A DNA stretch of 37,488 nt from Opitutaceae bacterium. GTDB lineage: Bacteria; Verrucomicrobiota; Verrucomicrobiia; Opitutales; Opitutaceae. This document shows, piece after piece, positions 1 through 29,849 of the stretch. Under the pieces are notes generated by a model, which ran no database searches, was not told where the DNA came from, and saw nothing but the letters and a program-made list of their open reading frames with translations. A program made the translations under genes and the position numbers. The stretch's first letter is position 1; each line of letters starts with the position of its first letter. The stretch lies in NCBI GenBank assembly GCA_028822375.1, contig JAPKDW010000010.1:1-37488 (forward strand), given 5' to 3'.

Positions 1-21
1 GCCATCTGCGCTCCACTCCGT

Positions 22-62
22 CAGACGATTTCAGTTAAGTTGACGCCAATGCGCTGAGCGGG
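22..62. repeat. Partial copy of a palindromic intergenic repeat at the window edge
   Basis: The stretch contains TTAAGTTGACGCCAATGCGC followed by a GAGCGGGA end. It matches the right inner part of the large element at 17758-18042 (around 17981-18005) and, inverted, the segment at about 17878-17910. It probably belongs to an element that continues to the left or has decayed. Seen in sequence; the extent is uncertain because the window starts here. Confidence 0.45.
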
Positions 63-1006: not shown

Positions 1007-1154
1007 TCTAATATACATTACACCAAGCATCAGCATAAAATTGAGATTTTATATTGTAGGGCGGGTTGCTAACCCGCCATTCCAGTACGCGTGTCGCCTC
1101 AGCGAGGCGACCTACAAAAAATAAGATTTATTATGACGCTTAGTATAGTTTAGA
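1007..1154. repeat. MITE-like palindromic element, GGCGGGTT subtype
   Basis: The core at 1055-1116 runs from TGTAGG to CCTACA and holds two perfect small hairpins, GGCGGGTT/AACCCGCC and GTCGCCTC/GAGGCGAC. The AT-rich flanks out to 1007 (TCTAATATAC) and 1154 (GTATAGTTTAGA) are imperfect inverted repeats of each other, giving an element of about 148 bp. It fills the gap between the DUF1592 gene and the dioxygenase. The same core recurs at 11885-11950. Confidence 0.75.
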
Positions 1155-11815: not shown

Positions 11816-11839
11816 CGTTTTTAGAATTATTAAAAGGTC

Positions 11840-12125
11840 TCTTAAAGCCTGTTTAATAAGTCCAATTCCTTCGAATAGATCAACTGTAGGGCGGGTCGCT
11901 GACCCGCCATGAAGCAGCATAAGGTTGTCGCCTCAGCGAGACGACCTACATTTCAATCCCTTTTAGGGCGGGTCGTTGACGCCGATTAGGATGAGATCTC
12001 GCCTCAGCCCTTCGACTCCGCTCAGGATCTACGATGAGACGACCTACAAAATCGAACTATTCAGAATTTACCTTATTGGGTTTCAATTGTAGTGTTCATT
12101 CCGACTTATTTAGTAGTCTCTTAGG
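11840..12125. repeat. Composite MITE-like element carrying two GGCGGGTC cores
   Basis: Outer inverted repeats are CTTAAAGCCTGTTTAATAAG (from 11841) and its counterpart GACTTATTTAGTAGTCTCTT (12103-12122). Inside are two cores of the GTAGGGCGGGTC type: 11885-11950 (GGCGGGTCGCTGACCCGCC hairpin plus GTCGCCTCAGCGAGACGAC) and 11962-12048. The second core is interrupted by a segment containing CCCTTCGACTCCGCTCAGG. The right end overlaps the last codon of the glycerophosphodiesterase gene: the TAA stop at 12123-12121 is part of the terminal CCTAAGAGAC. Confidence 0.75.
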
Positions 12126-12996
12126 GCGACTCCTTCCGCCAACCGTTTTTAATTAGATAATCCAAGGTTTCATCGGGACTATTCGTATGAAACATTCGAA
12201 CGCCCAATTTGGCGAGTTCCTCGATTTGGTTTGGATCTTCGTAAACGTGCGTTTGCACCAAAACTCCGTTCTTCACGGCAAAGCGAATTGCTTCGCTCAT
12301 CGCTTCCAAAATCGCTTCGCCCTTCCCGACCTCCACATGAACGGCCTTTGGGTGAAACGTCTCGATGACATGCCTCAACTCCAAAAGGTTTCGAGTCTTG
12401 ATCATCACTTCCACCTTAGGCGTTCCGTTTACAAAATACTTTTGAATCCTTTCTGTATCCTTGAAAACCGTACGAAGGAAAACGTCATCCGTCATTTCCA
12501 GCGTTGAAACCAATCGCGCCAACGCATCGAAGTGGTCGATCATCCCCGGTTTCAAATCAGGTTTGAATAGAATCTTCCCTTTGCCCGCATTCAACAGCTC
12601 TTCCAAGGTCGCCACCGATTCATTGGATATCGAGCCGTCGCGGTAGCGCTTCTTAAGCGCTTTCAATTCCGCAAGCGTCAGATCCTTTGCTTTTCCAGTA
12701 GCGTTAGTTTCCCGATCTAAAGTCGCATCATGAACCACGACGAAAACACCGTCTGAAGTACGCTGGATATCGGTCTCGTAAACATCGTATCCCTTACGAA
12801 TCGCTACAGCCAAATTCGCTAGCGTATTCTCAGGGGCTTGATCGGCTTTATCATTTGAATACCCGCCCCTATGCGCTGCCACGAGTACCATTCCATTCCG
12901 AGACGCTTCCAATAATTCCGAGGTTCGTAAGCCGTCTCCTCGGCAAAGTACCGAGAACCCCAATACAAAAAACAATAACAGATGCATTCGCGTCAT
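12121..12996 (-). CDS. Secreted glycerophosphodiester phosphodiesterase family protein
   Basis: 291 residues from the ATG at 12996, which lies 5 bp after the sulfatase stop and gives a clean Sec signal ('MTRMHLLLFFVLGFSVLC'); the longer frame would need a GTG inside the sulfatase gene. The catalytic GDPD signature is present: His42-Arg43 in 'AAHRGGYS', Glu56 in 'APENTL', Glu74 and Asp76 in 'YETDIQRTSDG', and the general acid His89 in 'VVHDATLDRETN'. The family hydrolyses glycerophosphodiesters to an alcohol and glycerol 3-phosphate; secreted verrucomicrobial members found with sulfatases may act on other substrates. A Cys close to the end of the signal ('SVLCRG') could make it a lipoprotein. 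The stop codon is supplied by the repeat element at 11840-12125. Confidence 0.9.
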   Translation of the reverse strand: MTRMHLLLFFVLGFSVLCRGDGLRTSELLEASRNGMVLVAAHRGGYSNDKADQAPENTLANLAVAIRKGYDVYETDIQRTSDGVFVVVHDATLDRETNATGKAKDLTLAELKALKKRYRDGSISNESVATLEELLNAGKGKILFKPDLKPGMIDHFDALARLVSTLEMTDDVFLRTVFKDTERIQKYFVNGTPKVEVMIKTRNLLELRHVIETFHPKAVHVEVGKGEAILEAMSEAIRFAVKNGVLVQTHVYEDPNQIEELAKLGVRMFHTNSPDETLDYLIKNGWRKESP

Positions 12997-13001
12997 AAGG
13001 T

Positions 13002-14492
13002 TCAGTAATCCGCCCCGGTTAAGCTTTTGAGAACAGACTCCTGCCACTGACGAAGCTCCGCTTGCAGCTTTTTCGCGGCAGCGGGTTTCTTTTCGATGAG
13101 ATTCATCGTTTCCGCAGGATCCTTTTTCAGATCGAAAAGCTCTTGTTCAATTTCACCGTTTTTACTTTCGCGTACGACTAATTTGAAGCGACCATCGATT
13201 ATTGCCCGTGGACCGAGGTAGTCGGCATCGCTGATTGTCGGGTGTTTGAGGTTCTTAAAGTTTCGCGTGGCGATATCGTCCATGAGTTTTACGAGCGGCG
13301 TCGTACCCACTTGCAATGCGGGATCGATGTAGTTTTCCGCCTGATCACCTCCACTATTCCTGAACTGCCAAAAATAGAGTGGATTGGAACGCGTGCTCAT
13401 CGTTCCATCAATTAAAGGAGTGAGGTCGATACCATCGATTGGACGCTCTGGAAGCGCTTGCCCAACGATCCCACAAAGCGTCGGGAGCAGATCGCTTGTA
13501 CTGGCGCGAATTTTCGTGCTGCGCGGTTTCGAAATTCGGTCAGGCCACTCAATAAGACCTGGAACGAGAATGCCACCGTCATAGACTTCGCCTTTGACGC
13601 CGCGATGCGGAGTAACCAGCGAGCCATCCTTCGAAGTGCCATTGTCGCCGCAATAAAAGAGCAGTGTATTATCTCTCAACCCTTCATCTGAAAGGTATGT
13701 TCGCAGCGTGCCTATGGATCGATCCATAGCGGTTATCTCTGCATAACGTTCGCGCAGAACATCGCCTTGAGGGCGCTGAGTTCGTCTACCGGTTTCGTTA
13801 GAAGTGAGACTTACCATCTTGTCTTTGTACTTCCCCGGAAGCTCATCGTAGAGCGCTAGGTCATCCGGCAGTCCACTGTAGGGCTCGTGTGGAGACCCAA
13901 ACCAAACGACTGTGAAGAACGGCTTATCAGACCCACTCCCACGACCTATGAAATCAATCAGCTCGCGAACAAGGATTTCAGAACTCTCGCCCGGATAAAC
14001 CTCTGGCGGTCCTCCGTTGCGAGAAAGCGATGGATTGAGCTCGAAGAAATTGTCATGCGAAAGCCATTCGTCGAAACCCATCGCGCCTGGATTCAATGGC
14101 GATTCGGCTTTGACCGTGCCGACATGCCATTTGCCGTAGTGGGCGCTTCGATAACCGGCTTTGCCCATAATGTGAGCGCTGGTGATTTCTTCAGGTCGGA
14201 AAGACCAACCCGGCGAGAACGTGCCCATGCGATTCGGGTGACGCCCCGTTAGAAAGCTCGCCCGCGTCGGCGAACAAGTCGGATGACCCGAGTAGAAATT
14301 CTCCAAGTGCAGCCCCGTAGCCGCCATCTCGTCGAGCACAGGAGTTTTAACGTACGGGTGACCGTTGTAACCCGTTTCCTCCCAACCATGATCGTCACCC
14401 ATCAAAAGGATGATATTTGGCTGCTCCGCAATCGATGATAGGCAAATGCCAAGCGTTGAGAGAATCAGGGCGAAAAGAGTAATAGGTTTCAT
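13002..14492 (-). CDS. Secreted formylglycine-dependent sulfatase
   Basis: 496 residues from ATG 14492, chosen because a Sec signal follows directly ('MKPITLFALILSTLGICL', cleavage near 'SSIAEQ'); an in-frame ATG at 14732 would put about 80 unrelated residues before the signal. The sulfatase core is intact: 'NIILLMGDDHGWEE' with metal-binding Asp33-Asp34, and the formylglycine motif Cys73-Ser-Pro-Thr-Arg77 followed by 'ASFLTGRHP'. 'GYRSAHYGKWHVG' holds the conserved GKWH. 'FYCGDNGTSKDG' supplies the second pair of metal ligands. The C-terminal 'QELFDLKKDPAETMNL' is typical of arylsulfatase-A-like (S1 family) enzymes. It hydrolyses sulfate esters, probably on a polysaccharide, in the periplasm. 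A GDPD gene follows after 5 bp, and a small membrane ORF overlaps its start. Confidence 0.93.
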   Translation of the reverse strand: MKPITLFALILSTLGICLSSIAEQPNIILLMGDDHGWEETGYNGHPYVKTPVLDEMAATGLHLENFYSGHPTCSPTRASFLTGRHPNRMGTFSPGWSFRPEEITSAHIMGKAGYRSAHYGKWHVGTVKAESPLNPGAMGFDEWLSHDNFFELNPSLSRNGGPPEVYPGESSEILVRELIDFIGRGSGSDKPFFTVVWFGSPHEPYSGLPDDLALYDELPGKYKDKMVSLTSNETGRRTQRPQGDVLRERYAEITAMDRSIGTLRTYLSDEGLRDNTLLFYCGDNGTSKDGSLVTPHRGVKGEVYDGGILVPGLIEWPDRISKPRSTKIRASTSDLLPTLCGIVGQALPERPIDGIDLTPLIDGTMSTRSNPLYFWQFRNSGGDQAENYIDPALQVGTTPLVKLMDDIATRNFKNLKHPTISDADYLGPRAIIDGRFKLVVRESKNGEIEQELFDLKKDPAETMNLIEKKPAAAKKLQAELRQWQESVLKSLTGADY

Positions 14493-14742: not shown

Positions 14743-14847
14743 CTTAGAGTCTGTTTAATAAGTCGAAGATTTCTCCGCTGCCTAATTGTAGGAGCGGTCC
14801 CGCTAAGCGGGACCGCTCCTACACTGACTTACTAAACAGTCTCTTAG
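14743..14847. repeat. MITE-like nested palindrome, best-formed copy
   Basis: Outer inverted repeats: CTTAGAGTCTGTTTAATAAG at 14743 and CTTACTAAACAGTCTCTTAG ending at 14847. Inner arms TGTAGGAGCGGTCCCGC (14787-14803) and GCGGGACCGCTCCTACA (14807-14823) form a near-perfect 37-bp palindrome. It sits between divergently transcribed genes (small ORF/sulfatase to the left, DUF1080 gene to the right). The left spacer, read in reverse, is almost the same as the right spacer of the copy at 24301-24456 (CAATTAGGCAGCG), so the whole unit, not only the arms, is conserved. Confidence 0.85.
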
Positions 14848-14908
14848 ACCAGTGGCGATTGAAGACCGCAGTTGCGTAGTCAAGATCAGACAAAATCAAA
14901 TCCAAGAT

Positions 14909-15598
14909 ATGAAAAATACAATTTCTATCATCATACTGTTCTTTACAGCGTTACTCCACGCCGACGAGGAATCCGACTTTGTCCCACTCTTCAACGGCAA
15001 CGATCTCGAGGGCTGGGACAGTAAACCAGAATCCTGGGAAGTCCGCGATGGCGAGATATGGTGTACCGGCGCCTCTAAGGAAAGGAACTGGCTTATCTGG
15101 CGCGGTGGCGAGCCCGCCGACTTTGTTCTCCGTCTCGAATTCCGTTGGGACAAAGGAAACTCCGGCGTCCAGGTTCGCAGTGACGATCTGGGTGAGTGGC
15201 AGGTTTTTGGATCCCAAGTCGAGATTGCGAGACAAGAAGTTATGGGACTCTGGCATCACTCCCTAATCGATAAAGAACACCCTAAAAGAGAAGCCCGATT
15301 CCTAATGACCACTGCGGGCGAAAGAGCCGTTATCGTAAAAGACGGAACGCGCACGAACACGAAACTCAAAGAATCAGCCGAGGTCCAGGCCCACTACAAA
15401 GAACACGAATGGAACAGCATGGAGATCATCGCAAAGGGCAATCGGATCGTTCAAAAAATCAACGGCGTCCACTTTGCCACCCTCATCGATAGAGACGCAG
15501 AAATGAGTCGAGCCAAGGGCTTCATCGGTTTCCAGGATCACGGCAAAGGCTGCACGGTCGCCTTTCGCAATATTCGCCTCAAGGAATCAAGGCCCTAG
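14909..15598 (+). CDS. DUF1080 family protein (3-keto-disaccharide hydrolase-like)
   Basis: 229 residues from ATG 14909, which begins a Sec signal ('MKNTISIIILFFTALLHAD'); the longer frame starts at a GTG inside non-coding sequence. The DUF1080/concanavalin-like fold covers about residues 24-226, with the hallmark 'FNGNDLEGW' (28-36), 'GNSGVQVR' (83-90), and a C-terminal 'GFIGFQDHGKGCTVAFRNI' strand. Members of PF06439 include enzymes that hydrolyse 3-keto-glycosides produced by Gfo/Idh/MocA dehydrogenases; two such dehydrogenases lie elsewhere in this window. Secreted, periplasmic. It stands alone on the plus strand, downstream of a MITE-like element. A GC-rich hairpin CAAGGCC/GGCCTTG spans the stop codon but has no T-run on this strand. 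Confidence 0.9.
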   Translation: MKNTISIIILFFTALLHADEESDFVPLFNGNDLEGWDSKPESWEVRDGEIWCTGASKERNWLIWRGGEPADFVLRLEFRWDKGNSGVQVRSDDLGEWQVFGSQVEIARQEVMGLWHHSLIDKEHPKREARFLMTTAGERAVIVKDGTRTNTKLKESAEVQAHYKEHEWNSMEIIAKGNRIVQKINGVHFATLIDRDAEMSRAKGFIGFQDHGKGCTVAFRNIRLKESRP

Positions 15599-15612
15599 GC
15601 CTTGAAAAGAGT

Positions 15613-15857
15613 GAATGGTGAGGTTTAAATGGTGAAATGAATTTAACTCCACCCGACATTAAAAAAAGAGCGTTCGAGTTTGCTTATAGCGACGAAACTA
15701 CTACCCGAAAAACGCCTAATTATTCTAACGAATGAGTCCAACCAACTCGTCGCTATACTCACATCCATAGTAAAGAAATCGAGAAACTCCTAATTCTCTC
15801 CCGTTAAGCTCCTTTTGCTACGCCATCTCCACTTCGCTTCGTCACTACTCACCATTC
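15613..15857. repeat. Inverted repeats flanking the four-helix-bundle remnant
   Basis: GTGAATGGTGAG (15611-15622) and CTCACCATTCAA (15848-15859) are inverted copies about 225 bp apart, with further TCACT/AGTGA-like words next to the right copy. They bracket the broken gene and end 15 bp before the next sulfatase start codon. The arrangement suggests a small inserted unit. Confidence 0.6.
15637..15793 (+). pseudogene. Remnant of a four-helix-bundle (23S rRNA IVP-type) protein gene
   Basis: From ATG 15637 the frame reads 'MNLTPPDIKKRAFEFAYS', the usual N-terminus of the TIGR02436 four-helix-bundle proteins. From about 15695 another frame reads 'KLLPEKRLIILTNESNQL' then 'VAILTSIVKKSRNS' and stops at 15793; this is the usual C-terminal helix of the same family. 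The middle, about 70 residues with the 'GKQLLRSGTSVGAN' type motif, is absent and the frame changes at the junction, so the gene is dead. GAATGGTGAG at 15613-15622 and CTCACCATTC at 15848-15857 flank it as inverted repeats. Identification is from recognition of both ends, not from a search. Confidence 0.8.
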
Positions 15858-15872
15858 AATACTCACTATTCC

Positions 15873-17732
15873 ATGTCCGACACCCCCAACATTCTCTGGA
15901 TCACCTCCGAGGACATGAGCCCGACCCTTGGCTGTTATGGTGATGCCTACGCGACCACTCCCTACCTCGACCAGCTCGCCAAAGACGGTGTCCTTTACAC
16001 CAATGCCTCCGCGACAGCCCCCGTTTGTTCCCCATCGCGTTCCTGCCTCATCAATGGGCTGCCTGCCACTTCTCAAGGCACTCAACAAATGCGTTCCGCG
16101 TTTCCAATTCCTGAATACATGATCGGCTTTCCGAGCGTCCTGCGCGAGGTTGGGCAATACACCTCAAACAACGTCAAGACGGACTACAACAGCGGTAATT
16201 GGGAAGCTATCATCGCCGCCTCCTGGGACGAAAGCAGCGACAATGCCCACTGGCGCAATCGCAAGGCAGACCAACCGTTCTTCTCCATCTTCAACCTCAT
16301 GACCTCTCACCAGAGTCGCACGATGGTCTGGCCCTACGAGCAATTCCTCTCAGAGGTTCAGAGTAAACTCGAAGCCAGCGAAATCCACGACCCCGACAAA
16401 GCGCCCATCCCTCCTTACTACCCCGACACCCCCGTCGTTCGCAAAACCCAGGCCCGCTTCTACGACTGCGTCACGGCGATGGACAAAGAAGTCGGCGCCA
16501 TTCTTCAGCAACTGGAAGACGACGGCCTCGCCGAAAACACGATCGTATTCTTCTACTCCGACCACGGCTCCGGCATGCCCCGCCATAAGCGCACGCTGCT
16601 CGATTCCGGCATAAAGGTTTCCCTCATTATTCGCTTTCCGGAAAAACACCAGCACCTAGCCCCCTCAGCCCCCGGCACTCGCGCCGATCGCCTCGTCAGC
16701 TTCGACGACTTCGGGCCTACCGCTCTCAGTCTCGCCGGCGCCAAAATTCCTGCTTACATGGAGGGCCAGCCCTTTCTCGGTGCAGCTGCCGTCTCGCGCC
16801 GTGAATACACATACGGCCACCGCGACCGCGTCGACGAAGCTCACGACCTGGCTCGATCCGTCCGTAACAAACAGTTCCTCTATATCCGCAATTACATGCC
16901 CCATCTGGGTTACAACCAGCCGACCGCCTGGCCAGACCTCGGAGAAATCCCCCACGAATTCTACGCCCTCGCCAAAACCGAGGACATGACCGTCCCCCAG
17001 AAACACTTCGCTGGCCCAACTCGCCAACTCGAAGAATTATACGACTGCCAAGCCGACCCCCAGAATCTCAAGAACCTCGCAAGCTCATCCGCCTACCACG
17101 ACGTCCTCGAAAGAATGCGAGCTCAACTCCAGGAGCGTATCCACGCAAGTCGCGACCTTGGTTTCCTCCCCGAAGCCCTCGCTTGGAAACTCAGCGAAGG
17201 CAGCACTCCTTACGAGCTCGCCCGCAGTTCTTCCGGCGCCTACGACCAATCACGTCTCGTCAACGCTGCCTCCCAAGTTGGACTCGGTACGAGCGAGGAT
17301 TTTCTCGTCAACCTGAAGCACCACGACCCCGGCGTCCGTTTCTGGGGCGCCGTCGGATTCAGCGCGGCAAAATCACTCTCCTCCAAAGCCATCGATTCGC
17401 TGACTGATGCCCTCAGCGACGACATCGCCAACGTTCGTATCGAAGCCGCGAACGCCCTCGCCCGCCACGGCCACACGGGGAAATCCATTCCCATCCTCGC
17501 CGCCGCCCTGGAAGAAGAGAACCTCGCGGCCGTCCAGCACGCCGCCCGCGCGATCGAACTGCTCGGCGAAAAAGCCAAAGCAGCCCTACCTGCCGTTGCC
17601 GCCTGCGACGTTCGCATGAAAGCTATCCGTCCCCCAGGCACCTCTCCAATCGTCGTCGACCCCGACAAAGACAAAGCCATGTTCGTCACCTTCTCCACTG
17701 AAGCCTTCCTCAAACAATTCGGCTCGAACTAG
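15873..17732 (+). CDS. Sulfatase with C-terminal HEAT-like repeats, no signal peptide
   Basis: 619 residues. The sulfatase domain starts at once ('TPNILWITSEDMSPTLGCYG', metal Asp/Glu at 13-14) and carries the formylglycine motif Cys52-Ser-Pro-Ser-Arg56. 'FFYSDHGSGMPRHKRTLLDSG' supplies the second metal site. Residues about 480-600 form alpha-helical HEAT-like repeats ('DPGVRFWGAVGFSAAK', 'IANVRIEAANALARHG', 'LAAVQHAARAIELLG'), a known fusion in planctomycete and verrucomicrobial sulfatases. There is no signal peptide from ATG 15873, and the upstream sequence is the four-helix-bundle remnant, so the original start may have been lost. Codon use is strikingly C-rich at third positions compared with neighbours, which suggests a different origin. 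Substrate unknown. Confidence 0.9.
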   Translation: MSDTPNILWITSEDMSPTLGCYGDAYATTPYLDQLAKDGVLYTNASATAPVCSPSRSCLINGLPATSQGTQQMRSAFPIPEYMIGFPSVLREVGQYTSNNVKTDYNSGNWEAIIAASWDESSDNAHWRNRKADQPFFSIFNLMTSHQSRTMVWPYEQFLSEVQSKLEASEIHDPDKAPIPPYYPDTPVVRKTQARFYDCVTAMDKEVGAILQQLEDDGLAENTIVFFYSDHGSGMPRHKRTLLDSGIKVSLIIRFPEKHQHLAPSAPGTRADRLVSFDDFGPTALSLAGAKIPAYMEGQPFLGAAAVSRREYTYGHRDRVDEAHDLARSVRNKQFLYIRNYMPHLGYNQPTAWPDLGEIPHEFYALAKTEDMTVPQKHFAGPTRQLEELYDCQADPQNLKNLASSSAYHDVLERMRAQLQERIHASRDLGFLPEALAWKLSEGSTPYELARSSSGAYDQSRLVNAASQVGLGTSEDFLVNLKHHDPGVRFWGAVGFSAAKSLSSKAIDSLTDALSDDIANVRIEAANALARHGHTGKSIPILAAALEEENLAAVQHAARAIELLGEKAKAALPAVAACDVRMKAIRPPGTSPIVVDPDKDKAMFVTFSTEAFLKQFGSN

Positions 17733-18050
17733 TCTCGTATGAATTCATGAGATTGGTCTCAGAGACTGTTAATTAAGGCAGAAATCTTATATTTGGTTGA
17801 TTGTAGGAGCGGGTTTATCCCGCGATTCCCCTTAATCGATCACACGCAAATCAATTCTATCGCGGTCCACGCTTAGCGCATACGCGTCAACTTAACTGAA
17901 AATCATCTAAAACCACGCCGCCTTGCGTCTACGACGAGAATTCGGCGTGGTATCTGCAATAACCTTCCTCAATCCGGCCTAAGTTCACGCCAATGCGCTT
18001 AGCGGGACCACTCCTACAATGACTTATTGAAAAGCCTCTAAGAAAGAACC
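17733..18050. other. Intergenic stretch occupied by a repeat element
   Basis: Nearly the whole 318-bp gap is the composite palindromic element listed at 17758-18042. Nothing else was recognised; the promoter of the next sulfatase would have to lie within the element. Confidence 0.6.
17758..18042. repeat. Long composite MITE-like element with nested palindromes
   Basis: Left outer end CTCAGAGACTGTTAATTAAG (17758 onward) and right outer end GACTTATTGAAAAGCCTCTA (18021-18040) are inverted versions of the same terminus. Inner arms: TTGTAGGAGCGGG (from 17801) and CCACTCCTACAA (18008-18019). Further inside, GCTTAGCGCATACGCGTCAA and, inverted, CACGCCAATGCGCTTAGC form another pair, and ACCACGCCG/CGGCGTGGT (17912-17920, 17943-17951) form a central hairpin. 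It is about 285 bp, roughly 180 bp longer than the copy at 14743-14847, as if one palindrome had inserted into another. The right end supplies an AAGAAAG a few bases before the next start codon. Confidence 0.75.
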
Positions 18051-19790
18051 ATGAACTCACGAGCAAAAACAGTCGCTTATATTAGCCTTCTAACGGGTCT
18101 GACTCTAGTCAGCACTATCTCTCACGCCGCCGGATCGCCAAACGTCATTTTGATAATGACCGATGACCAGGGTTATGGAGAACTATCCAGTCACGGACAT
18201 GCTATATTGAAGACTCCAAACTTGGATCGCCTACGCGATGAAAGCGTACGCCTGACTGACTTTCATGTATCCTCGAAGTGTTCGCCCACCCGAGGAGCCT
18301 TGATGACGGGAAGACACTGCCGACACGTGGGGGTTCGCGAGGCGGACAATGGTCGTAACATCATAGGCAGAGAGTTTTCCACTGTAGCCGATATATTCTC
18401 AGATAATGGATACAAAACCGGGATCTTCGGGAAATGGCACCTGGGTGGGCATTATCCATTCAGGCCACAAGATCGAGGATTCGACGAAGTGGTCATACAC
18501 ACGAACGGTGCGATAGGCACCACTGGCGATAGATGGGACAATGACTATTACGACGATCTCTTTTGGCATAATGGCAGGCTGCAACGGTATGCGGGCTACT
18601 GCACCGATATTTGGTTCGAAGAGGCGATGGCCTGGATGAAGCAATCGACAGACAAGGAACAGCCGTTCTTCTGCTACCTTCCAACCAATGCGCCCCATGG
18701 GCCTCATATTGTGCCTGACAAATATGCCGAGCCCTATCGAAAAGCCGGGAGAACGGATGCCGACCGCCTGGGCATGATCAGCAATTTCGATGAGAACATG
18801 GGCAGATTGATGTCCTTCCTGAAATCGTCCGGACTTCAGCAAAATACGATCCTAATCTTTCTCACCGACAATGGCGCTCCACAGAGAACGGGAGACAATG
18901 CTGGTATGCGTGGCGGGAAAGGTAATGGATACGATGGTGGACACCGCGTACCATTCTTAATTCGATGGCCGGATGGATCAATAACAGGCGGGAAAGACGT
19001 GGACACCCTCACTGCGCACATCGATGTGTTACCAAGCCTAATCGATCTCTGTGGGCTATCGCCAGGTGATACGCGGTTCGATGGAATCAGTTTCGCGTCT
19101 TTGCTACAGGGGAAACGAAATAGCCAGTTCGATAACCGGGTGCTCATTGAATCCTACTCCGGGGTAGTCCTGACAGAAGAGTGGCGCTTGGTAAACAATG
19201 AGGAACTGCATAATATCCAAAACGATCCCGCTCAGGAGAAGGACTTGGCGGATGAATTCCCCGAACTAGTCAGCAAATTCCGCAAAGCGCTGGATAAAAA
19301 CAGAGCCGACGATTTTAGTGTCACCCCGAGAATAATCATCGGCTCGGAGTTTCAACCAGAACAAGCGTTTACGATCTACCACTGGTATGATCATCATGGA
19401 TACTACAATAACCTAAAAGTCACCCAGGGCCAATTGATCAATGGAGTGATTCCCATTGAAGTCACGAAGTCTGGAAAATTCGAATTCACACTACGACGCT
19501 GGCCCTCCGATCTGGACATACCGATTAGCTCAAAACCGGATAACGATTTAGACGGGTTTAAATTATTCAACGCATCAGATCCCGATCATCGTTTTAAAGC
19601 GATAGATATTCGTTACGCCAGACTACGAGTTGGGTTGTTTGATAAATCTAGTCCTGTTTCCAAAACGATATCATCCGTCGTCTTCAGTTTGCATCTCGAA
19701 GCCGGCGAAACCGAAATCGAAACCTGGTTTACTACCGCAGATGGAAAAACGCTTGGAGCGTACTATTTGGACGTTCGACGAATTAATTGA
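18051..19790 (+). CDS. Secreted arylsulfatase A-like sulfatase
   Basis: 579 residues with a Sec signal (cleavage near 'ISHAAG', residue 27). 'NVILIMTDDQGYGELSSHG' carries the metal-binding Asp38-Asp39; the formylglycine motif is Cys77-Ser-Pro-Thr-Arg81 in 'SSKCSPTRGALMTGRH'. 'GIFGKWHLGGHYPFRPQDRG' and 'IFLTDNGAPQRTG' complete the active site. Residues about 420-579 form a C-terminal beta-rich extension typical of this arylsulfatase group ('YHWYDHHGYYNNLKVTQGQ'). It releases sulfate from an unknown, probably polysaccharide, substrate in the periplasm. It is followed after 78 bp by the third DUF1592 gene and may be co-transcribed with it. Confidence 0.93.
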   Translation: MNSRAKTVAYISLLTGLTLVSTISHAAGSPNVILIMTDDQGYGELSSHGHAILKTPNLDRLRDESVRLTDFHVSSKCSPTRGALMTGRHCRHVGVREADNGRNIIGREFSTVADIFSDNGYKTGIFGKWHLGGHYPFRPQDRGFDEVVIHTNGAIGTTGDRWDNDYYDDLFWHNGRLQRYAGYCTDIWFEEAMAWMKQSTDKEQPFFCYLPTNAPHGPHIVPDKYAEPYRKAGRTDADRLGMISNFDENMGRLMSFLKSSGLQQNTILIFLTDNGAPQRTGDNAGMRGGKGNGYDGGHRVPFLIRWPDGSITGGKDVDTLTAHIDVLPSLIDLCGLSPGDTRFDGISFASLLQGKRNSQFDNRVLIESYSGVVLTEEWRLVNNEELHNIQNDPAQEKDLADEFPELVSKFRKALDKNRADDFSVTPRIIIGSEFQPEQAFTIYHWYDHHGYYNNLKVTQGQLINGVIPIEVTKSGKFEFTLRRWPSDLDIPISSKPDNDLDGFKLFNASDPDHRFKAIDIRYARLRVGLFDKSSPVSKTISSVVFSLHLEAGETEIETWFTTADGKTLGAYYLDVRRIN

Positions 19791-19868
19791 AAAGAGCTGT
19801 ACTGAATCACGACCAGGTCCCAGGTTGATGATTCCTGAGATGACCCTTACCGCTCATTTTTCCAATGT

Positions 19869-21938
19869 ATGATGACAAGAACTCATAACATTTTTGCCTC
19901 ACTAGTTCTCACGGCATTTGCTTGTTCTGCTACCAGTCCCGCAATGCCAGGAGCGGATCTCGAAACCGATTCGGCAAAAGCATTCAGCATGGAGGAACTA
20001 CCGGTTTTCATGAAAACCTATTGTGCCGATTGTCATAATCCGGAAAAAGAAAAGGGTGATATCGACCTTACACCGATTATCGAAAACCTGGACCTGGCCG
20101 GAACCGATATCCTCGAGCACGTATTCGACATGGTGTCCTTCCTCGAAATGCCCCCGGAAGACGAAAACCAACCCAGCTATGACGAACGTCAACAGTTTCT
20201 AAAAGGCTTGGGATCTCTTCTCCCGGGTTCCGAGATTGAAATGAAGGATCTTTTCGCTCAGCCCGCCCATGGCAATTACGTCAACCACGAGAAACTTTTT
20301 ACCGAGCCTGGGCAACGCAAGGCGGCCACACCGGTTCGCCTTTGGCGCATGAGCCCGCATATTTTCAAGGAGCAGGCCAATCGAATCTCTCGCACGGTCA
20401 TGCTGCGAGTTCAGGCAAACCAGGGTTCGGATGGTCTCCATCCGGCATTTTCCTACATGACGCCGCCCCACGCTTTCCGCGACCATGCAGAAGCCCATTC
20501 CTTTGAAGAAGCCACTACCGAGTTACTTTTTAATGTATGTTGGCAGATCTCCGGCTACGAAATTAATTCGCCAAAATCATCGGATATTATTCAGGGATTT
20601 CTAAAGTTGAAAACGCCCGCCAAGGAGGATTGGAAAAAGATGATCCGCCTCCAATATAGTATGGCGCTTCGCCGCGATCCTACCGAAGAGGAGTTTGACG
20701 GTTTAATCGCTTTGGGTGAAAAAACTCGCACCGAAACCGGTATTCGGGAGGCTTTGCAAACCGTGCTAACGGCCGTCCTTCTCAAACCCGAGGCGGTCTA
20801 CCGATTTGAAATAGGTCAAGGTGAACCGGATCAATACGGTCGAGTGTTCCTGGCGCCGAATGAGGTGATGCATGCAATTGCGTTTGCGCTCACGGACAAG
20901 GTGCCAGATCCATCGCTCACCAATGCGATGGGGACTGGCAAACTGGAAACTCGTGCCGACGTTCGCAAACAGGTCGAACGTCTCCTAGCAAACAGAGAAG
21001 CGACGAAAGAAAGGATACTGCGTTTCTTTCAGGAGTATTTTGAGTATCCGAGCGCTACGGAAGTTTTTAAAGATGCCCGTCGTCCCAACGCTATTTTTGC
21101 CAATAATCGGGTTGCCGACGCGGATGACCTCGTGCTTTGGATCTTGGGTGAAGACAGGGATGTACTGAAGCGCCTACTTACCGAAGAGCATTTATTTGTA
21201 TCGCGAAAAGCGATTCTCGGTCGCGAACCGGTGGTCTTCCGCGCGAGGCGGGATTTTCTGCCGGATTATGGTTTTCAGAACGATTGGGTGTACAATGAGA
21301 ACCAACCGGTCAAACCGACGGAAGCTCGTAGATCCGGAATGTTGACGCACCCTGCATGGCTGTTGGCCTTTTCTGACAATGAAAAAAACCAGGCCATCCA
21401 ACGTGGAAAGTGGATACAAACGAAGCTCCTCGGAGGCACGATTCCAGAAACCCCAATCGGCGTTGACGCCAAACTTCCTGACGATCCACATCTGACCTTG
21501 CGGGAGAAGATGGGCAAGGTGACCAATGCTGAATACTGCTGGCGTTGTCACCAAAAAATGGATCCATTAGGACTGCCGCTTGAGCAGTTTGACGACTTCG
21601 GCCGTTTTCGCAAGATGGAGCTTGATAAGCCGGTCGTCACCACAGGCAGGATAGCTATTGGCGACCCCGAACTCGACGGACCGATAACGGACTCTTATGA
21701 AATGATGGAGCGCCTTGCGAATTCCACACGCGTGGAACAGGTTTTTGTCCGCCACGTATTTCGTTACTTTCTTGGTCGCAATGAAACGATAGACGATGCC
21801 CCCACCTTGATCGATGCCCATAACGCTTATCGCGAGAACAACGGCAGTATGAAAGCGCTCGTTGCTTCGTTGCTTACCTCCGATTCTTTTCTCTATCGCC
21901 AATTGCCGCCCGAATCAATGCAGGCTTCTAATAATTAG
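19869..21938 (+). CDS. DUF1592/DUF1588-type planctomycete cytochrome protein, short form (copy 3)
   Basis: 689 residues, 140-180 shorter than the two minus-strand paralogues. A Sec signal covers about 1-27. Heme motif CADCH (Cys52, Cys55, His56) is followed by 'NPEKEKGDIDLTP'; a second motif CWRCH is Cys557, Cys560, His561, followed by 'QKMDPLGLPLEQFDDFG' (DUF1588). The DUF1587-equivalent region reads 'RLWRMSPHIFKEQANRIS'. DUF1592 spans about 310-440, and the C-terminus matches DUF1585 ('FVRHVFRYFLGRNE', 'LVASLLTSDSFLYRQ'). The large variable middle domain of the other copies is reduced here. The DUF1552 partner follows 29 bp after the stop. An alternative ATG is the next codon. Confidence 0.9.
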   Translation: MMTRTHNIFASLVLTAFACSATSPAMPGADLETDSAKAFSMEELPVFMKTYCADCHNPEKEKGDIDLTPIIENLDLAGTDILEHVFDMVSFLEMPPEDENQPSYDERQQFLKGLGSLLPGSEIEMKDLFAQPAHGNYVNHEKLFTEPGQRKAATPVRLWRMSPHIFKEQANRISRTVMLRVQANQGSDGLHPAFSYMTPPHAFRDHAEAHSFEEATTELLFNVCWQISGYEINSPKSSDIIQGFLKLKTPAKEDWKKMIRLQYSMALRRDPTEEEFDGLIALGEKTRTETGIREALQTVLTAVLLKPEAVYRFEIGQGEPDQYGRVFLAPNEVMHAIAFALTDKVPDPSLTNAMGTGKLETRADVRKQVERLLANREATKERILRFFQEYFEYPSATEVFKDARRPNAIFANNRVADADDLVLWILGEDRDVLKRLLTEEHLFVSRKAILGREPVVFRARRDFLPDYGFQNDWVYNENQPVKPTEARRSGMLTHPAWLLAFSDNEKNQAIQRGKWIQTKLLGGTIPETPIGVDAKLPDDPHLTLREKMGKVTNAEYCWRCHQKMDPLGLPLEQFDDFGRFRKMELDKPVVTTGRIAIGDPELDGPITDSYEMMERLANSTRVEQVFVRHVFRYFLGRNETIDDAPTLIDAHNAYRENNGSMKALVASLLTSDSFLYRQLPPESMQASNN

Positions 21939-21967
21939 ATTCAAAACCGACTCCCCAATCTTCTGAA

Positions 21968-23350
21968 ATGAAAATGCCACAACTCTCACGCCGCAGGTTC
22001 CTCAACCATCTTTCGCTTGGGGCTAGCGCTCCGATCCTATTGCCCTTGCTGAACAACATCGCCCTGGGGGAAGAAGGAAAGGTGGCTCCCCTCCGGTTCT
22101 TATTCGTAGTGGAAGGCAATAGTGTGCCGCCCCAACAAGTTTGTCCGATTGGCATTCCCTTTATCGAGAGAGAACAACGAAATGGATACGTTGAGCATTC
22201 ACTGGATGGAAGCACTTTGCCAACGGCCTTGAAACCGGTGGAACAATTTCGTGACAAGCTCACCATTGTGCAGGGCCTCTCCGGGCGGATGTGCTCCGGC
22301 GGTCACTCCAGTGACCATGGCGCGCTTGGCGCCTACCATGCCAACCAGGGGCGCAGTATTCTGGCACCCACAATCGATGCTGTGCTTGGCCAAGCAAATC
22401 CCGGAATTTTCGAGAACCTGGTTCTCGGTATTTCCAGCAACGCAAAAAAGGTAGTGGATTTCAACTGCTCCGCAGCCGCTCGCGGGCGCAGCCTCGCCAC
22501 CTTGCTTCACCCCTCAGTAGCCTATGAGCGATTGTTTGGCAGTGTGGCCGAAGGCGAAGCCAAAGCTTCCTTCCAAGCCCGCAGCAATCTGCTCGATTAC
22601 ATGCGGGAGGATATCAAACACGCGCGCCGGGAACTGGGTTCCATTGAAAAGGAAAAAATGGATGCCTACCTGTCCTCATTCGAGACTCTCCAATCGACTT
22701 CCAAACGGCTCGTTGAATACCGTGATACTCTAAAGGAAGTGGCGCCAGCGGTGACCGATAAATACTCGTCCACTGTCGAGACCGATCGACTCGATGCCCA
22801 CTTCGAATTGGCCACCGCTGCATTGATTGGCGGACTTAGCAATTGCGCCACGATCTCATCGGGTGTCGGTTTTCCCAATTTTAATATTACCTTCAGCGGG
22901 CTCGGCATCACCACGGGCAAACATCCGATGGGGCATGCGCTTTACAATGAGGAGAATCATGATGCTTGGGAAATGTCGGAAAAGATTCGCGCCTTCCATT
23001 TCCAGCTCATCGCGCGAACCATGCGAAAGCTGCAATCTATGCCTGAGGGCGACGGCGGCACCATGCTGGACAACACCGTGGTCGTTTACCTGAGTGACGG
23101 TGCTGAGACGCACCACAGCCGTTGTTTCGAATGGCCGTTCGTGGTGCTGGGGGATGCCAACGGGCGCATCAAGTCAGGTGGTCGTTACCTTCAGTATCCA
23201 GATTATGGAACTAAAGGACACCGCACGATCAACGCGCTCTACAATACGTTTCTCCACGCGGCCAAAATACAAAAAAATGACTTTGGCCATATGGATCCGA
23301 ACCTCGACGAAAGCATGCACCGCGGTCCGCTCAGCGAAATGCTGGCATAA
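21968..23350 (+). CDS. DUF1552-family protein, Tat-exported, lacking HXXSHH (copy 3)
   Basis: 460 residues with a twin-arginine signal ('LSRRRFLNHLSLGASAP'). It aligns in outline with the other DUF1552 proteins: 'TIVQGLSGRMCSGGHSSDHG' early, a helical middle 'KEKMDAYLSSFETLQ', and 'VVYLSDGAETHHSRCFEWP' late. The HxxSHH box that names the family is not present; the equivalent stretch is His319-Pro-Met-Gly-His323, followed by 'YNEENHDAWE' with His331. It is the partner of the preceding short DUF1592 protein (29 bp gap). The TAA stop at 23348-23350 belongs to the end of the MITE-like element that follows. Confidence 0.87.
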   Translation: MKMPQLSRRRFLNHLSLGASAPILLPLLNNIALGEEGKVAPLRFLFVVEGNSVPPQQVCPIGIPFIEREQRNGYVEHSLDGSTLPTALKPVEQFRDKLTIVQGLSGRMCSGGHSSDHGALGAYHANQGRSILAPTIDAVLGQANPGIFENLVLGISSNAKKVVDFNCSAAARGRSLATLLHPSVAYERLFGSVAEGEAKASFQARSNLLDYMREDIKHARRELGSIEKEKMDAYLSSFETLQSTSKRLVEYRDTLKEVAPAVTDKYSSTVETDRLDAHFELATAALIGGLSNCATISSGVGFPNFNITFSGLGITTGKHPMGHALYNEENHDAWEMSEKIRAFHFQLIARTMRKLQSMPEGDGGTMLDNTVVVYLSDGAETHHSRCFEWPFVVLGDANGRIKSGGRYLQYPDYGTKGHRTINALYNTFLHAAKIQKNDFGHMDPNLDESMHRGPLSEMLA

Positions 23351-23495
23351 GATACTGTTAAATAAGTCGTGTAGGAGCGGGTTTACCCCGCGATAGTGCA
23401 GATAGACATAAATGGAAACGAGGGACATCGCGGGATAAACCCGCTCCTACAATTTGGTTGTGGAGCAATTTTAGACTTATTAAACAGGCCCTAAT
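23346..23495. repeat. MITE-like nested palindrome, GGTTTACCCC subtype
   Basis: Outer ends ATAAGATACTGTTAAATAAG (23347 on) and AGACTTATTAAACAGGCCCT (23473-23492) are inverted repeats. Inner arms TGTAGGAGCGGGTTTACCCC (23370-23389) and GGGATAAACCCGCTCCTACA (23432-23451) pair over about 20 bp with a CGCGAT/ATCGCG continuation. The first bases form the stop codon of the preceding DUF1552 gene. Confidence 0.85.
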
Positions 23496-23525
23496 AATTT
23501 TAATTGAAACTAAACGGCAGAAACG

Positions 23526-24215
23526 ATGAAAACGCCCAGTCTCATTCGCATTCCCCAACTCACTCTGCTATCTGCAATTATCGTATTGGTTCCTGCTTTT
23601 CTCCAGGCCAAGGCTGATGAATCCCAATCAGCCATTTTTCAAAAAGAAACAGGAAAAGAGGAGGCTTTCGATCTCAAAGGGAAAACCCGTGAGCGTAATG
23701 GGGCTTACGAGTTTTTCATTCCACACGGCGAAAAGTACACCACGTTTGCCCTCTCTGAGGAACCGCGCCAGCTTTGCGCCCGATTGAGCGAGGAAGGGAC
23801 CGCGCAGATGAAGGACCTGGAAGGTCTAGCTATGGGTCGCTGGCGCATAGCCGGCAAATGCATTCCGAATCCGAATGGCAAAGGCCATATAATAACATCG
23901 GTCCAAGAAATCGAACCACTCGGTCCTGGGGTCGTTTATACCGAAGACCGCGAGCTTACCGGTACTCTTGAAGTCTTGGGCGATCCGAATGCCAAGGATT
24001 TCCTGACCACGTCCTCCATGCATTTTCATAGCGACGACGGCATAGTTTACCGTATTCCCGCTAAGAAATTCAAGCTCAAGCCGAGCGGGCTCAGTTATCA
24101 ACAGGCAGCTCTTTTTGACAAAAAATCCATAAGAATGAAAGCCCGAATCCAAATCTACCGCGAGCAGCCTTTTCGTGTGGCAACTGTATTTAATTTCGCT
24201 GAAGCGGGTGGTTGA
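23526..24215 (+). CDS. Unrecognised secreted protein
   Basis: 229 residues with a clear Sec signal ('LTLLSAIIVLVPAFLQAKA', cleavage near residue 29-30). I do not recognise the family. The mature part is predicted mostly beta: 'AYEFFIPHGEKYTTFALSEE', 'MGRWRIAGKCIPNPNGKG', 'ITSVQEIEPLG', 'ELTGTLEVLGD', 'MHFHSDDGIVYRIPAKKF'. Two Cys residues ('QLCARL' and 'GKCIPN') are about 30 residues apart and could form a disulfide. It reads like a two-repeat small beta-barrel (the GxW/I-x-G and LTGTLEV motifs recur), but that is only an impression. It lies between two MITE-like elements, downstream of the third DUF1592-DUF1552 pair, and has no obvious operon partner. Confidence 0.75.
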   Translation: MKTPSLIRIPQLTLLSAIIVLVPAFLQAKADESQSAIFQKETGKEEAFDLKGKTRERNGAYEFFIPHGEKYTTFALSEEPRQLCARLSEEGTAQMKDLEGLAMGRWRIAGKCIPNPNGKGHIITSVQEIEPLGPGVVYTEDRELTGTLEVLGDPNAKDFLTTSSMHFHSDDGIVYRIPAKKFKLKPSGLSYQQAALFDKKSIRMKARIQIYREQPFRVATVFNFAEAGG

Positions 24216-24300
24216 GTCATGCGAATTCACATAGCGGAATATTGCTCTGAACTCCTCTCCTGCCCCTTCAAGATTACTGATACTCCGGAGTGCCATAAAT

Positions 24301-24456
24301 CTTAGAAACTTTTAAATAAGTCAGTGTAGGAGCGGTCCCGCTAAGCGTGGACCGCGATTTTTCATTTCCATGTTATAGAGAGGCGTTATCGCGGGGTAAA
24401 CCCGCTCCTACAATTAGGCAGCGCAACAATCTTCGACTTATTTAACAGTCTCTTAG
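24301..24456. repeat. MITE-like nested palindrome, hybrid core
   Basis: Outer ends CTTAGAAACTTTTAAATAAG (24301) and ACTTATTTAACAGTCTCTTA (24436-24455) are inverted repeats. The inner left arm, TGTAGGAGCGGTCCCGC at 24325, is of the type in the 14743 copy, while the inner right arm, GGGGTAAACCCGCTCCTACA ending at 24412, is of the type in the 23346 copy. The two halves therefore pair fully only at TGTAGGAGCGG/CCGCTCCTACA and at short CGCGAT/ATCGCG words, as if two elements had recombined. Confidence 0.8.
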
Positions 24457-28494: not shown

Positions 28495-29592
28495 TTATTC
28501 AATTATCTCGTATACTTCTACGAGCACTTCCCCTTGTCTGCCGTCAGCAGAAGTCACCACTACGGTGTAAACTCCAGTAGAAAGCGTTATTAGAGTAGCA
28601 GCGCTTTTAGTATCGTCAGTGGGAAGCGGGTTTCCTTGGAAGTCGGCAACGGGTTCCAGCGGGAACGCTCCTGCGGTAGCCATTACGGTATTCAGTAATT
28701 CAATATCCGCTCCGTTTTCCTTCCAGTTATCGACAATAGCTATCTCATCGGGCGGCTGGCCATCGAAGCGGCTTTTGTATATCGTCATCGTTGGGTCAGG
28801 CAATGGCGAGGCTACCCCAAGATCGGCGAGCTTAGGACCAACAGCTCGAATTAGCATCTTCTTCCGTTCCCCAAGAACGACGAAACCGGGAATTACTGTT
28901 TCGCCCTCCCCGAGAGCGACACGAGCCGAGACATTGACAATCGTTCGCGCTTCCTCAGCCGCAGTAGCGACTTCCGATTGACTATAGTAGGTTGAAAACA
29001 CCCTGAAATACCCTTTATTTTCTGAGTACGGGAGACCCATCGCTCCCGCAGCCACAGCGCTCCCGTCGGCGCTGAGCGATACTGAAGATCCGAACCCATC
29101 GCCGGCGGCTTCGCCGTCTATGTCGGCGCCAAGCTGCAACCATCCGCCGGTCGCGGCATTATAAGTGTAGACGCGCACGTGCCCGGATTCGGTACCATTG
29201 CCATTGTTGAAGTTCGTCCCAACGGCTAACGTGGATGAGTTAGCACTGAGCGATACTGAATATCCGAACCAATCGCCGGCGGCTTCGCCGTCTATGTCAC
29301 CACCCCTCTGCAGCCATTCACCGGCCGAAGCATTGTAATCGTAGACGCGCACATGCCCGGAGTCGGTACCATTGCCATCGTTAAATTCCGCGCCAACAGC
29401 CAGAGTCGAGCCATCGGCACTGAGCGATACCGAGGAGCCTGAACGGTCACCAGTCGCCTCTCCGGCAATACTACCGCCTTTCTGAACTTGAATAGCGGCG
29501 GGTAACGTCAAGGCCACCGAAAACGAGATAAAGCACACGAGAACGGTCACAAAGCATCGTATTGGCATTAGGTGCAAAGATCTAGATACCAT
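28495..29592 (-). CDS. Secreted FG-GAP repeat protein with verrucomicrobial C-terminal module
   Basis: 365 residues from ATG 29592, preceded by GAGGG; a TTG-started frame at 29628 is less likely. Signal peptide about 1-33 ('CFVTVLVCFISFSVALTLPA'). Three FG-GAP-type repeats of about 53 residues follow: 'GEATGDRSGSSVSLSADGS', 'GEAAGDWFGYSVSLSANSS', 'GEAAGDGFGSSVSLSADGS', each with a 'DGNGTDSGHVRVY' type loop. The number is low for the fold (seven blades), so the protein may be shortened. From about residue 210, 'VNVSARVALGEGETVIPGF' to the end is a roughly 140-residue module common at the C-terminus of verrucomicrobial surface proteins ('KMLIRAVGPKLADLG'). No enzymatic motif; surface binding is a guess. 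Confidence 0.8.
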   Translation of the reverse strand: MVSRSLHLMPIRCFVTVLVCFISFSVALTLPAAIQVQKGGSIAGEATGDRSGSSVSLSADGSTLAVGAEFNDGNGTDSGHVRVYDYNASAGEWLQRGGDIDGEAAGDWFGYSVSLSANSSTLAVGTNFNNGNGTESGHVRVYTYNAATGGWLQLGADIDGEAAGDGFGSSVSLSADGSAVAAGAMGLPYSENKGYFRVFSTYYSQSEVATAAEEARTIVNVSARVALGEGETVIPGFVVLGERKKMLIRAVGPKLADLGVASPLPDPTMTIYKSRFDGQPPDEIAIVDNWKENGADIELLNTVMATAGAFPLEPVADFQGNPLPTDDTKSAATLITLSTGVYTVVVTSADGRQGEVLVEVYEIIE

Positions 29593-29849
29593 ACCCTCGA
29601 TCCTGTAAGCATACCCGTTGGTGAGCAAGCGGAAAACTCTGAGTAAGCGTTCGCTTGGGCTTCGCAGGATACGGATCTCTTAACTAGGGGTTCCCGTTTT
29701 TAGTTTACACCTTCAACACCAAGCCCTTGTGCTCGTTGTCCGCGGTGCCTTGTTCAAGTGTATAAATAGGGACAGGCTAATAATCATTAATATGAATGCA
29801 TAACTTGCTGATACGCAAGGTGATTATAGATTTCTAATAAACCTAATGT
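29593..29849. other. Intergenic stretch before the tRNA fragment
   Basis: No gene seen. It contains the upstream region of the FG-GAP gene and a small hairpin CTTGC/GCAAG at 29804-29818 next to the tRNA remnant. Confidence 0.4.

Follow-up and report, generated by a model that had tools for sequence, protein, structure and literature searches.

A gene-less MITE of an Opitutales-related bacterium with GTAG-type REP doublets and a third inserted mini-element

Described repeat systems and the stack in the window

MITEs of the IS5 family are short, have no coding capacity, carry terminal inverted repeats and are flanked by a TNA duplication. The outer element described here is alike in all of this, and its ends are the same in kind as those of an IS5-family insertion sequence found in a congener, yet in most of its copies a fixed internal site is occupied by a REP doublet, and several unrelated palindromic cores are found under the same ends. 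The inner repeats recall GTAG REPs and REPINs, which are GTAG-tagged palindromes in inverted pairs (PMC3733652, PMC3116915); Opitutus terrae (Verrucomicrobia) is listed as rich in GTAG repeats in PMC3733652. Unlike those, some of the REPs studied here are enclosed in a DDE-type MITE, and no RAYT gene at the loci examined in the genus has these REPs nearby. A third layer inserts in the REP palindrome, as do the REP-targeting insertion sequences IS1397, IS621 and ISRm22 (PMC1525189), but unlike a full insertion sequence it has no genes, measures roughly 115-150 bp and makes a 9-bp duplication. Finally, as in nested or tandem MITE insertions, tandem copies have one TNA in common, whereas here three different kinds of element are combined in one unit. 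Each layer is of a known kind, and our search of the literature found no account of the three-layer stack.

The window, i.e., the whole stretch of 37,488 nucleotides analysed, belongs to an uncultured Opitutales-related bacterium in which the gene-less mini-element is found in many copies, with up to three layers of selfish DNA piled up within a few hundred bases. All five copies recognised in the initial annotation are present at the positions it gave (Table 1), and the spacers, which it had described as conserved between copies, are so indeed (arms of 54-55 nt at 83-89%). Other parts of that description needed refinement. Its outer repeats contain real 18-bp ends, but their edge, CTTAG/CTAAG, is mostly target (TNA in CTNAG) and not repeat. 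The shared inner repeat TGTAGGAGCGG is found in four of the five copies (the arm at 18008 with a mismatch), whereas the copy at 11840 has another inner REP family, TGTAGGGCGGG ... CGACCTACA. What had been termed a variable core is made up in part of REP alleles that can be exchanged and, at 17762-18038, of the third inserted element.

Table 1. Repeat features located in the window; MITE boundaries are given with the TNA duplication taken off.
Feature	Position	Strand	Remarks
Third-layer element, right part	1..51		cut by contig start; then CGCTGAGCG at 52-60
Type-2 REP doublet, free-standing	1055..1116		families D11, D12; no recognisable MITE ends
Degenerate further MITE copy, unpaired right end	11824..11841	+	3 mismatches to end consensus
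MITE copy of inner type 2, its GTAGGGCGGG REPs in part tandem	11845..12120		TTA at 11842-11844 and 12121-12123
Type-2 REP doublet (TGTAGGGCGGGTCGCTGACCCGCCAT / TGTCGCCTCAGCGAGACGACCTACA) inside MITE copy 11845	11885..11950		repeat families D11, D12
MITE copy, 97 bp	14747..14843		terminal inverted repeats 14747-14764 and 14826-14843; TTA at 14744-14746 and 14844-14846
Inner perfect palindrome TGTAGGAGCGGTCCCGCTAAGCGGGACCGCTCCTACA, a collapsed REP pair	14787..14823		within copy 14747
MITE copy holding all three layers	17762..18038		flanks TCA 17759-17761 and TAA 18039-18041, non-identical
REP-A (TGTAGGAGCGGGTTTATCCCGCGAT) of copy 17762	17802..17826	+	repeat family D13
REP-B of copy 17762, split by third-layer element	17859..18018	-	repeat family I14
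Third-layer mini-element (left end CATACGCGTCAACTTAACT) in REP-B loop of copy 17762	17879..17995		boundaries by eye
MITE copy with REP-A doublet (23370-23394 and 23427-23451)	23351..23491		TAA at 23348-23350 and 23492-23494
MITE copy with REP-B (~24325-24358) and REP-A (24388-24412)	24305..24452		TTA at 24302-24304 and 24453-24455

The outer element and its proposed mobiliser

The 18-bp terminal inverted repeats of the MITE read GAGACTGTTWAATAAGTC. Sites matching them with at most 3 mismatches number 163 genome-wide (control, 1), and the same search gives 10 matches in the window, where shuffles expect 0.00. We analysed 55 paired copies, 7 of 62 pairs having been dropped for poor ends and 25 loci with unpaired ends kept out of the counts. 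These copies measure 59-359 bp, under the limit of about 400 bp set for a MITE, have no transposase gene of their own and are scattered across many contigs, beyond the 13 kb occupied by those in the window. Mean pairwise identity is 82-83% in the 18-bp ends versus 25-27% in the flanks 6-46 nt further out. An identical 3-bp TNA duplication is seen on both sides of 33 of the 55 copies (TAA/TAA in 17, TTA/TTA in 15), versus a mean of 17.4 and a maximum of 28 identical pairs in 10,000 permutations, while the remaining 22 copies have no identical duplication. The target context is CTNAG, with a preceding C in 42 and a following G in 40 of the 55 copies. Tandem copies with one common TNA occur at L035, L060, L100 and L111, and in the window the degenerate end at 11824..11841 adjoins copy 11845 via a common TTA.

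Segmental duplication as the source of the copies is ruled out, as their flanks do not align: among 37 pairs of same-length copies (at least 85% identical, compared over 40 nt of flank on both sides), flank identity is 15-35% throughout. Over 139 bp, L057 matches L061 at 98.6% identity, against 29% in their flanks; window copy 24305 is 96.6% identical over 148 bp to a copy on another contig (L070), with unrelated flanks (24%). The initial annotation had named confinement of the copies to this locus, or flanks aligning beyond the outer repeats, as what would speak against a dispersed element; the spread over many contigs and the divergent flanks are the opposite of both, and its proposal of a dispersed gene-less element is supported, with target duplications present. 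Judged by its sequence, the outer element is a MITE and not a segmental duplication.

Terminal repeats accompanied by a direct TNA duplication are the hallmark of DDE enzymes, and a 3-bp TNA duplication is typical of IS5-family groups, not of IS4 (9-13 bp). The outer layer thereby points to an IS5-family DDE transposase and not to a RAYT, which had been suggested at first as a possible mobiliser and does not fit these ends and duplications. Ends of this kind also enclose an IS5-family element in congener genome G004: L229, of 914 bp, is bounded by GAGAGTGTCCAATAAGTC and GAAAGTGTCCAATAAGTC, which differ from the commonest MITE ends of the window's genome at 3 and 4 of 18 bases, and encodes a two-frame IS5-family transposase (PF13340, E 1.1e-26; NF033580, E 4.8e-38 and 2.3e-26). 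Its two flanks read TGA and TTA, so its own duplication is inexact. Because this congener insertion sequence carries the same kind of ends, we infer mobilisation in trans, in agreement with the original suggestion, and an enzyme of this kind presumably moved the copies in this strain. The anticipated partner, a transposase gene between ends of this kind, was seen in the congener; none was found in the genome bin of the window, where PF13340 had no match (0 of 22 candidates scored). An IS5 relict in G010 (L235) has one end at 1 mismatch to the L229 ends; a second end was looked for there and not found, and the visible end is followed by GAA, not TNA. Elsewhere in relatives, 10 of the 12 IS5 loci L229-L240 had no pair of ends within the limits of the scan, and in G002 (L189) two ends separated by 809 bp were dropped as a candidate insertion sequence, the outer TNAs being different.

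PF01609 has three matches in the window's genome bin, namely an IS1634-type locus (L113), an IS4-type locus (L114) and an IS4-type remnant (L115). L113 was rejected as mobiliser, its only end-like site lying inside the locus at 5 mismatches, and so was L115, which lies ~650 bp from a MITE copy and is not enclosed by MITE ends. It is unlikely that the IS4-family transposase L114 moved the outer element, although it belongs to the same genome, its gene is cut by a contig end, and GATTGATTAAACAGCCTC, at 3 mismatches to the MITE end, lies directly downstream of its ORF: this single visible end is followed by CTA rather than TNA, the four best relatives of L114 (39% identity; L242, L243, L248 and L250) have no MITE-type end within 5 mismatches, and the 3-bp TNA duplication speaks against IS4.

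Another alternative is that the copies are regulatory palindromes maintained by the host and selected at gene ends as terminators or mRNA-stabilising hairpins. The three copies that were folded do form strong hairpins, with z from -4.7 to -9.7 in four folds, and copy 14747..14843 folds as a single long one (z -9.7 as DNA, -9.4 as RNA). In 7 of the 55 copies an ORF of at least 150 codons has its stop codon exactly at a flanking TNA; among intergenic sites of the same stretches, the count is 7 of 170 for CTNAG (Fisher p 0.047) and 104 of 3274 for TNA (binomial p 0.0017). In the window, the GDPD gene at 12121-13047 has the right TTA of copy 11845 as its stop codon (TAA on the minus strand), and the gene at 21968-23350 has the left TAA of copy 23351. 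However, a TNA always reads TAA or TGA on one strand, and target choice together with selection against gene disruption would lead to the same bias. Moreover, the orthologous gene neighbourhoods of congeners show no MITE end; their intergenic DNA is too diverged to align, and the search for empty sites yielded none that was exact. We thus regard maintenance by the host as very improbable. An Rfam search of the window gave no match.

REP doublets and the third-layer element

The inner repeats are GTAG-type REPs, two of which in inverted orientation form a hairpin. REP sites within 3 mismatches number 268 (control, 0). Among 100 REP sites listed, a MITE end lies within 70 nt of 39 and is absent near 60, and one site is at a contig end; the background is 1.55%. 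Some of the REP sites lacking a recognisable end may be decayed MITEs. Genome G001 has 112 REP sites and 0 outer-end sites, and these counts, together with the REP sites without ends, suggest that the REP and MITE layers are independent.

In most type-1 copies the register of the REPs is fixed, the short arm lying at offset 21 in 34 of 39 and the long arm at offset 41 in 30 of 39. The two copies L061 and L086 have a 101-base prefix and a 31-base suffix in common, the right REP being their sole difference; the exchange is read from the sequences themselves and probably occurred by gene conversion. The GTAGGAGCGG REP is absent from 16 of the 55 copies with the same outer ends, and some of these 16, five of them labelled type 3, have an unrelated core without GTAG REP under these ends. 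The automatic type labels give only an approximate grouping (by eye, L083 belongs to type 2 although labelled "other", and the label of L060:1689 is doubtful), and most of the REP alleles printed as "?" are REP-B by eye.

RAYT-like genes are present in the window's genome (four matches, two above the family cut-off), and of 37 matches, the 30 with a locus were examined in the genus. None of these 30 has an exact TGTAGGAGCGG or a MITE end nearby, while five have isolated one-mismatch matches to TGTAGGAGCGG that do not continue as REP. The single-contig genome G010, rated 97% complete, has 23 REP sites and no match to the RAYT model. We therefore speak of GTAG-REP doublets and not of REPINs proper, because no RAYT locus examined has the same REP; the RAYT proposed in the initial annotation would fit the inner doublets only, and even for these the null count at the 30 loci tells against it. 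It is scarcely credible that a RAYT moved the entire structure as a variant of a REPIN, with the outer repeats as mere conserved flanks, for in spite of the RAYT-like genes and the doublets, the same outer ends occur without the REP or around unrelated cores, the RAYT-like loci have neither REP nor MITE ends nearby, and 18-bp terminal repeats with a TNA duplication are not those of a RAYT-mobilised element.

The third-layer mini-element sits in the loop of REP-B, and its end sites number 125 (control, 6). Among 16 paired copies scored, a set separate from the window copy at 17879-17995, 12 have 9-bp flanking repeats with at most one difference, seven of them exact, and four have no matching 9-mer; three of the 12 differ solely at a middle base that is complementary, a pattern that the palindrome alone gives as well. 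The duplications include the non-REP-B targets CGCAGAGCG and CGGTAGGGC. Around the window copy, a 9-bp duplication, CGCTTAGCG, is visible by eye at 17870-17878 and 17996-18004. The repeats also seem to break assemblies, at least 21 of the third-layer sites listed falling within the first 100 bases of a contig.

Proposed history and significance

We consider it highly probable that a MITE moved by an IS5-family enzyme captured a REP doublet, spread with it as a unit and later hosted the third element. An IS5-family DDE transposase would act on the 18-bp ends, insert at TNA, best within CTNAG, and duplicate three bases. At one fixed position within it, an ancestral MITE copy would have taken up a GTAG-type REP doublet, presumably before the spread, and the composite would then have dispersed as a whole. 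Inside the MITE, REP-A has been exchanged for REP-B, for which gene conversion with other REPs is the simplest mechanism, and the REPs of some copies have collapsed to shorter hairpins. The third mini-element, which makes 9-bp duplications and prefers CGCTNAGCG, has inserted in the loop of REP-B.

More tentatively, and with considerable doubt, REP doublets in the genus may have spread largely as cargo of DDE-type MITEs and not by RAYTs, the MITE serving as a chassis whose exchangeable REP slot is refilled by gene conversion from other REPs, and the REP hairpin as a landing pad for the third element. If so, the same ends would have acquired several unrelated palindromic families of the genus (types 1, 2 and 4 and those of G006 and G009) on separate occasions, and a preference of the enzyme or the host for cargo with hairpins would follow.

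There is no settled account of how REPs spread. RAYTs appear incapable of moving themselves, according to PMC3116915, and in PMC3733652 REP families are not obviously correlated with tyrosine transposase genes. Transport of REPs within a DDE-type MITE, if it occurs, would constitute a second route of REP spread. In the fixed chassis with its swapped REPs, the exchange of REPs is recorded naturally, and the third element, which seeks out loops, suggests that palindromes serve as safe landing sites.

Terminal repeats, target duplication and neighbouring genes of the MITE

The outer layer is a MITE, a gene-less element with 18-bp terminal repeats that starts with GAGACTGTTWAATAAGTC and finishes with the reverse complement of GAGACTGTTWAATAAGTC. 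The window carries 10 matches to its end pattern GACTTATTWAACAGKCTCTTA (≤3 mismatches; 0.00 expected), and the genome bin holding the contig (4.56 Mb, 457 contigs, 93% complete) carries 163, versus 1 for the reversed control. Using the unit at 14743-14847 as query, we obtained 110 matches at the DNA level. From the window and 78 fetched stretches we paired 62 copies and kept the 55 with good ends, unpaired ends being also present at 25 loci of this sample. A TNA borders 46 of the 55 copies on the left and 48 on the right, and identical TNA duplications are found in 33 of them (17 TAA/TAA, 15 TTA/TTA, 1 TGA/TGA), whereas 10,000 permutations gave identical flanking triplets in 17.4 copies on average and 28 at most. 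The target context is CTNAG, with a C before in 42/55 copies and a G after in 40/55. Tandem copies with one TNA in common (loci L035, L060, L100 and L111) show insertion into an already present target.

The initial annotation had favored a dispersed element over segmental duplication, and the flanks bear this out, as they are just 15-35% identical in all 37 pairs of equally long copies that share at least 85% identity and have 40 nt of flank on either side. For instance, copies L057 and L061 are 98.6% identical across 139 bp of MITE versus 29% in their flanks, and the window copy at 24305 and L070 96.6% across 148 bp versus 24%. Over all copies, mean pairwise identity is 82-83% at the ends and 25-27% at 6 nt or more outward.

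Genes beside the copies encode, among others, three sulfatases, a GDPD, a 3-keto-disaccharide hydrolase and DUF1552/DUF1588 proteins. In 7/55 copies, two of them in the window, a TNA at the border provides the stop codon for an ORF ≥150 codons long, versus 7/170 intergenic CTNAG sites (p = 0.047) and 104/3274 intergenic TNA sites (p = 0.0017). Since one strand of any TNA, whatever its middle base, carries TAA or TGA, insertion at a stop-codon TNA preserves the stop. The GDPD ortholog of the congener G002 (L305) ends four codons earlier, with no MITE end nearby. Strong hairpins were predicted for all three copies folded.

Coordinates of repeat features in the window
Feature	Position	Remark
MITE copy	11845-12120	
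MITE copy	14747-14843	
MITE copy	17762-18038	REP-B split by third-layer element
MITE copy	23351-23491	
MITE copy	24305-24452	
Target duplication	12121-12123	stop codon of neighboring gene
Target duplication	23348-23350	stop codon of neighboring gene
Third-layer element	17879-17995	between two CGCTTAGCG; read by eye
Third-layer element	1-51	such elements often at contig starts
Large palindrome	52-87	
Direct tandem repeat	29069-29416	174 nt, 79% identical, within minus-strand ORF 28495-29628

REP doublets and a third element within the MITE

The inner repeat, TGTAGGAGCGG...CCGCGAT, is a GTAG-tagged palindrome arranged as inverted pairs. According to PMC3733652, which defines GTAG REPs, Opitutus terrae is rich in them; REPINs are defined in PMC3116915. 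There are two alleles, distinguished by GGGTTTAYCCC (REP-A) and GGTCCCGCTAAGCGTGGACC (REP-B), and the right REP (A versus B) is the sole difference between copies L061 and L086. REP sites (≤3 mismatches) number 268 in the window's genome, versus 0 for the control, and at least one is present in 29/76 genomes (own counted); G001 has 112 REP sites and 0 MITE ends. Of the first 100 exact REP sites listed, 39 are accompanied by a MITE end no more than 70 nt outward (against a background of 1.55%), 60 have none and 1 lies at a contig end. This REP is contained in 39/55 MITEs, with arm offsets of 21 in 34 and of 41 in 30 of these 39; given these largely constant offsets, REP capture at a fixed MITE site looks ancestral. 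In the 84-bp copies, nothing but a collapsed hairpin is left of the REP pair.

The RAYT model has matches in 8/11 genomes of the genus, including four in the window's genome (two above cut-off). Exact TGTAGGAGCGG was found near none of 30 fetched RAYT-like loci, five of which have isolated one-mismatch matches that do not continue as REP.

A third element, with GCGTCAACTTAACT-type ends, splits REP-B in seven copies (L051, L063, L072, L101, L102, the window copy at 17762 and the free REP pair L124). Such end sites number 125 in the genome, versus 6 for the control. Flanking 9-bp repeats with at most one difference, mostly CGCTNAGCG and also CGCAGAGCG and CGGTAGGGC, were found in 12 of 16 paired copies scored (7 exact), the other four being without matching repeats. 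Another third-layer target seems to be a large palindrome of approximately GGTAGCGGCCGATCTTCCCGCTNAGCGGGAAGATCGGCCGCTACC, assembled by eye from half sites, at L369, L378 and in the window. Insertion sequences targeting REPs are already known (PMC1525189).

Distribution of the ends and candidate mobilizer

Any MITE end site occurs in 15/76 genomes (own counted), and the five genomes with more than five all belong to one genus: the window's own (163), G006 (120), G009 (44), G002 (22) and G004 (21). A second scan of named genomes, by exact match to a stricter end pattern, gave 33 stretches with MITE-type ends: two Opitutales bins, SI072_bin25 and OFTM265, account for 19, Pelagicoccus for one, Anaerolineae for 7, and Bacteroidetes, Acidobacteriota and Bacillota records for the other 6. 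The end sequence is widespread, since same-type ends bound short elements with other palindromic cores in Anaerolineae bins (L140, L153, L161, L164, L165). Other cores also lie between such ends in relatives (GGGACGGCGCCCG in G006, long palindromes in G009), and a 162-164-bp class with a CCGGGTATT core is shared by the window's genome, G009, G006 and a member of another genus, Pelagicoccus (L065, L087, L088, L089, L106, and L148 in Pelagicoccus), with the same ends and without GTAG REP.

The TNA duplication suggests mobilization by an IS5-family enzyme. PF13340 has matches in 9 of the 29 genomes searched, and none in the window's own. One of 12 PF13340 loci, L229 in the congener G004, contains a 914-bp element bounded by two MITE-type ends, between which two overlapping reading frames both match the IS5-family model NF033580. 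The two ends have 3 and 4 mismatches in 18 bases to the consensus of the window's genome, the bordering TNAs are unequal (TGA and TTA), and the end form GACTTATTGGACACTCTC is also among the listed end sites of the congener G009. L235 in G010 is a relict with four stop codons and one end 1 mismatch from the L229 end; a second end was looked for there and not found. The three PF01609 matches of the window's genome are of IS1634 and IS4 type. A single MITE-like end lies beside one IS4-type gene, whose four best relatives are without such an end at up to 5 mismatches. Elsewhere in this genome (L115, contig C344, ∼1432-1740), an IS4-type transposase remnant lies ∼650 bp from a MITE copy.

The literature searched, covering few subscription journals, gave no account of an IS5-type MITE with REP doublets in its interior or of this three-layer stack, and in a MITE review (PMC10969869) "nested", "IS5" and "REPIN" are absent as whole words. 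Each of the three layers is of a known kind.
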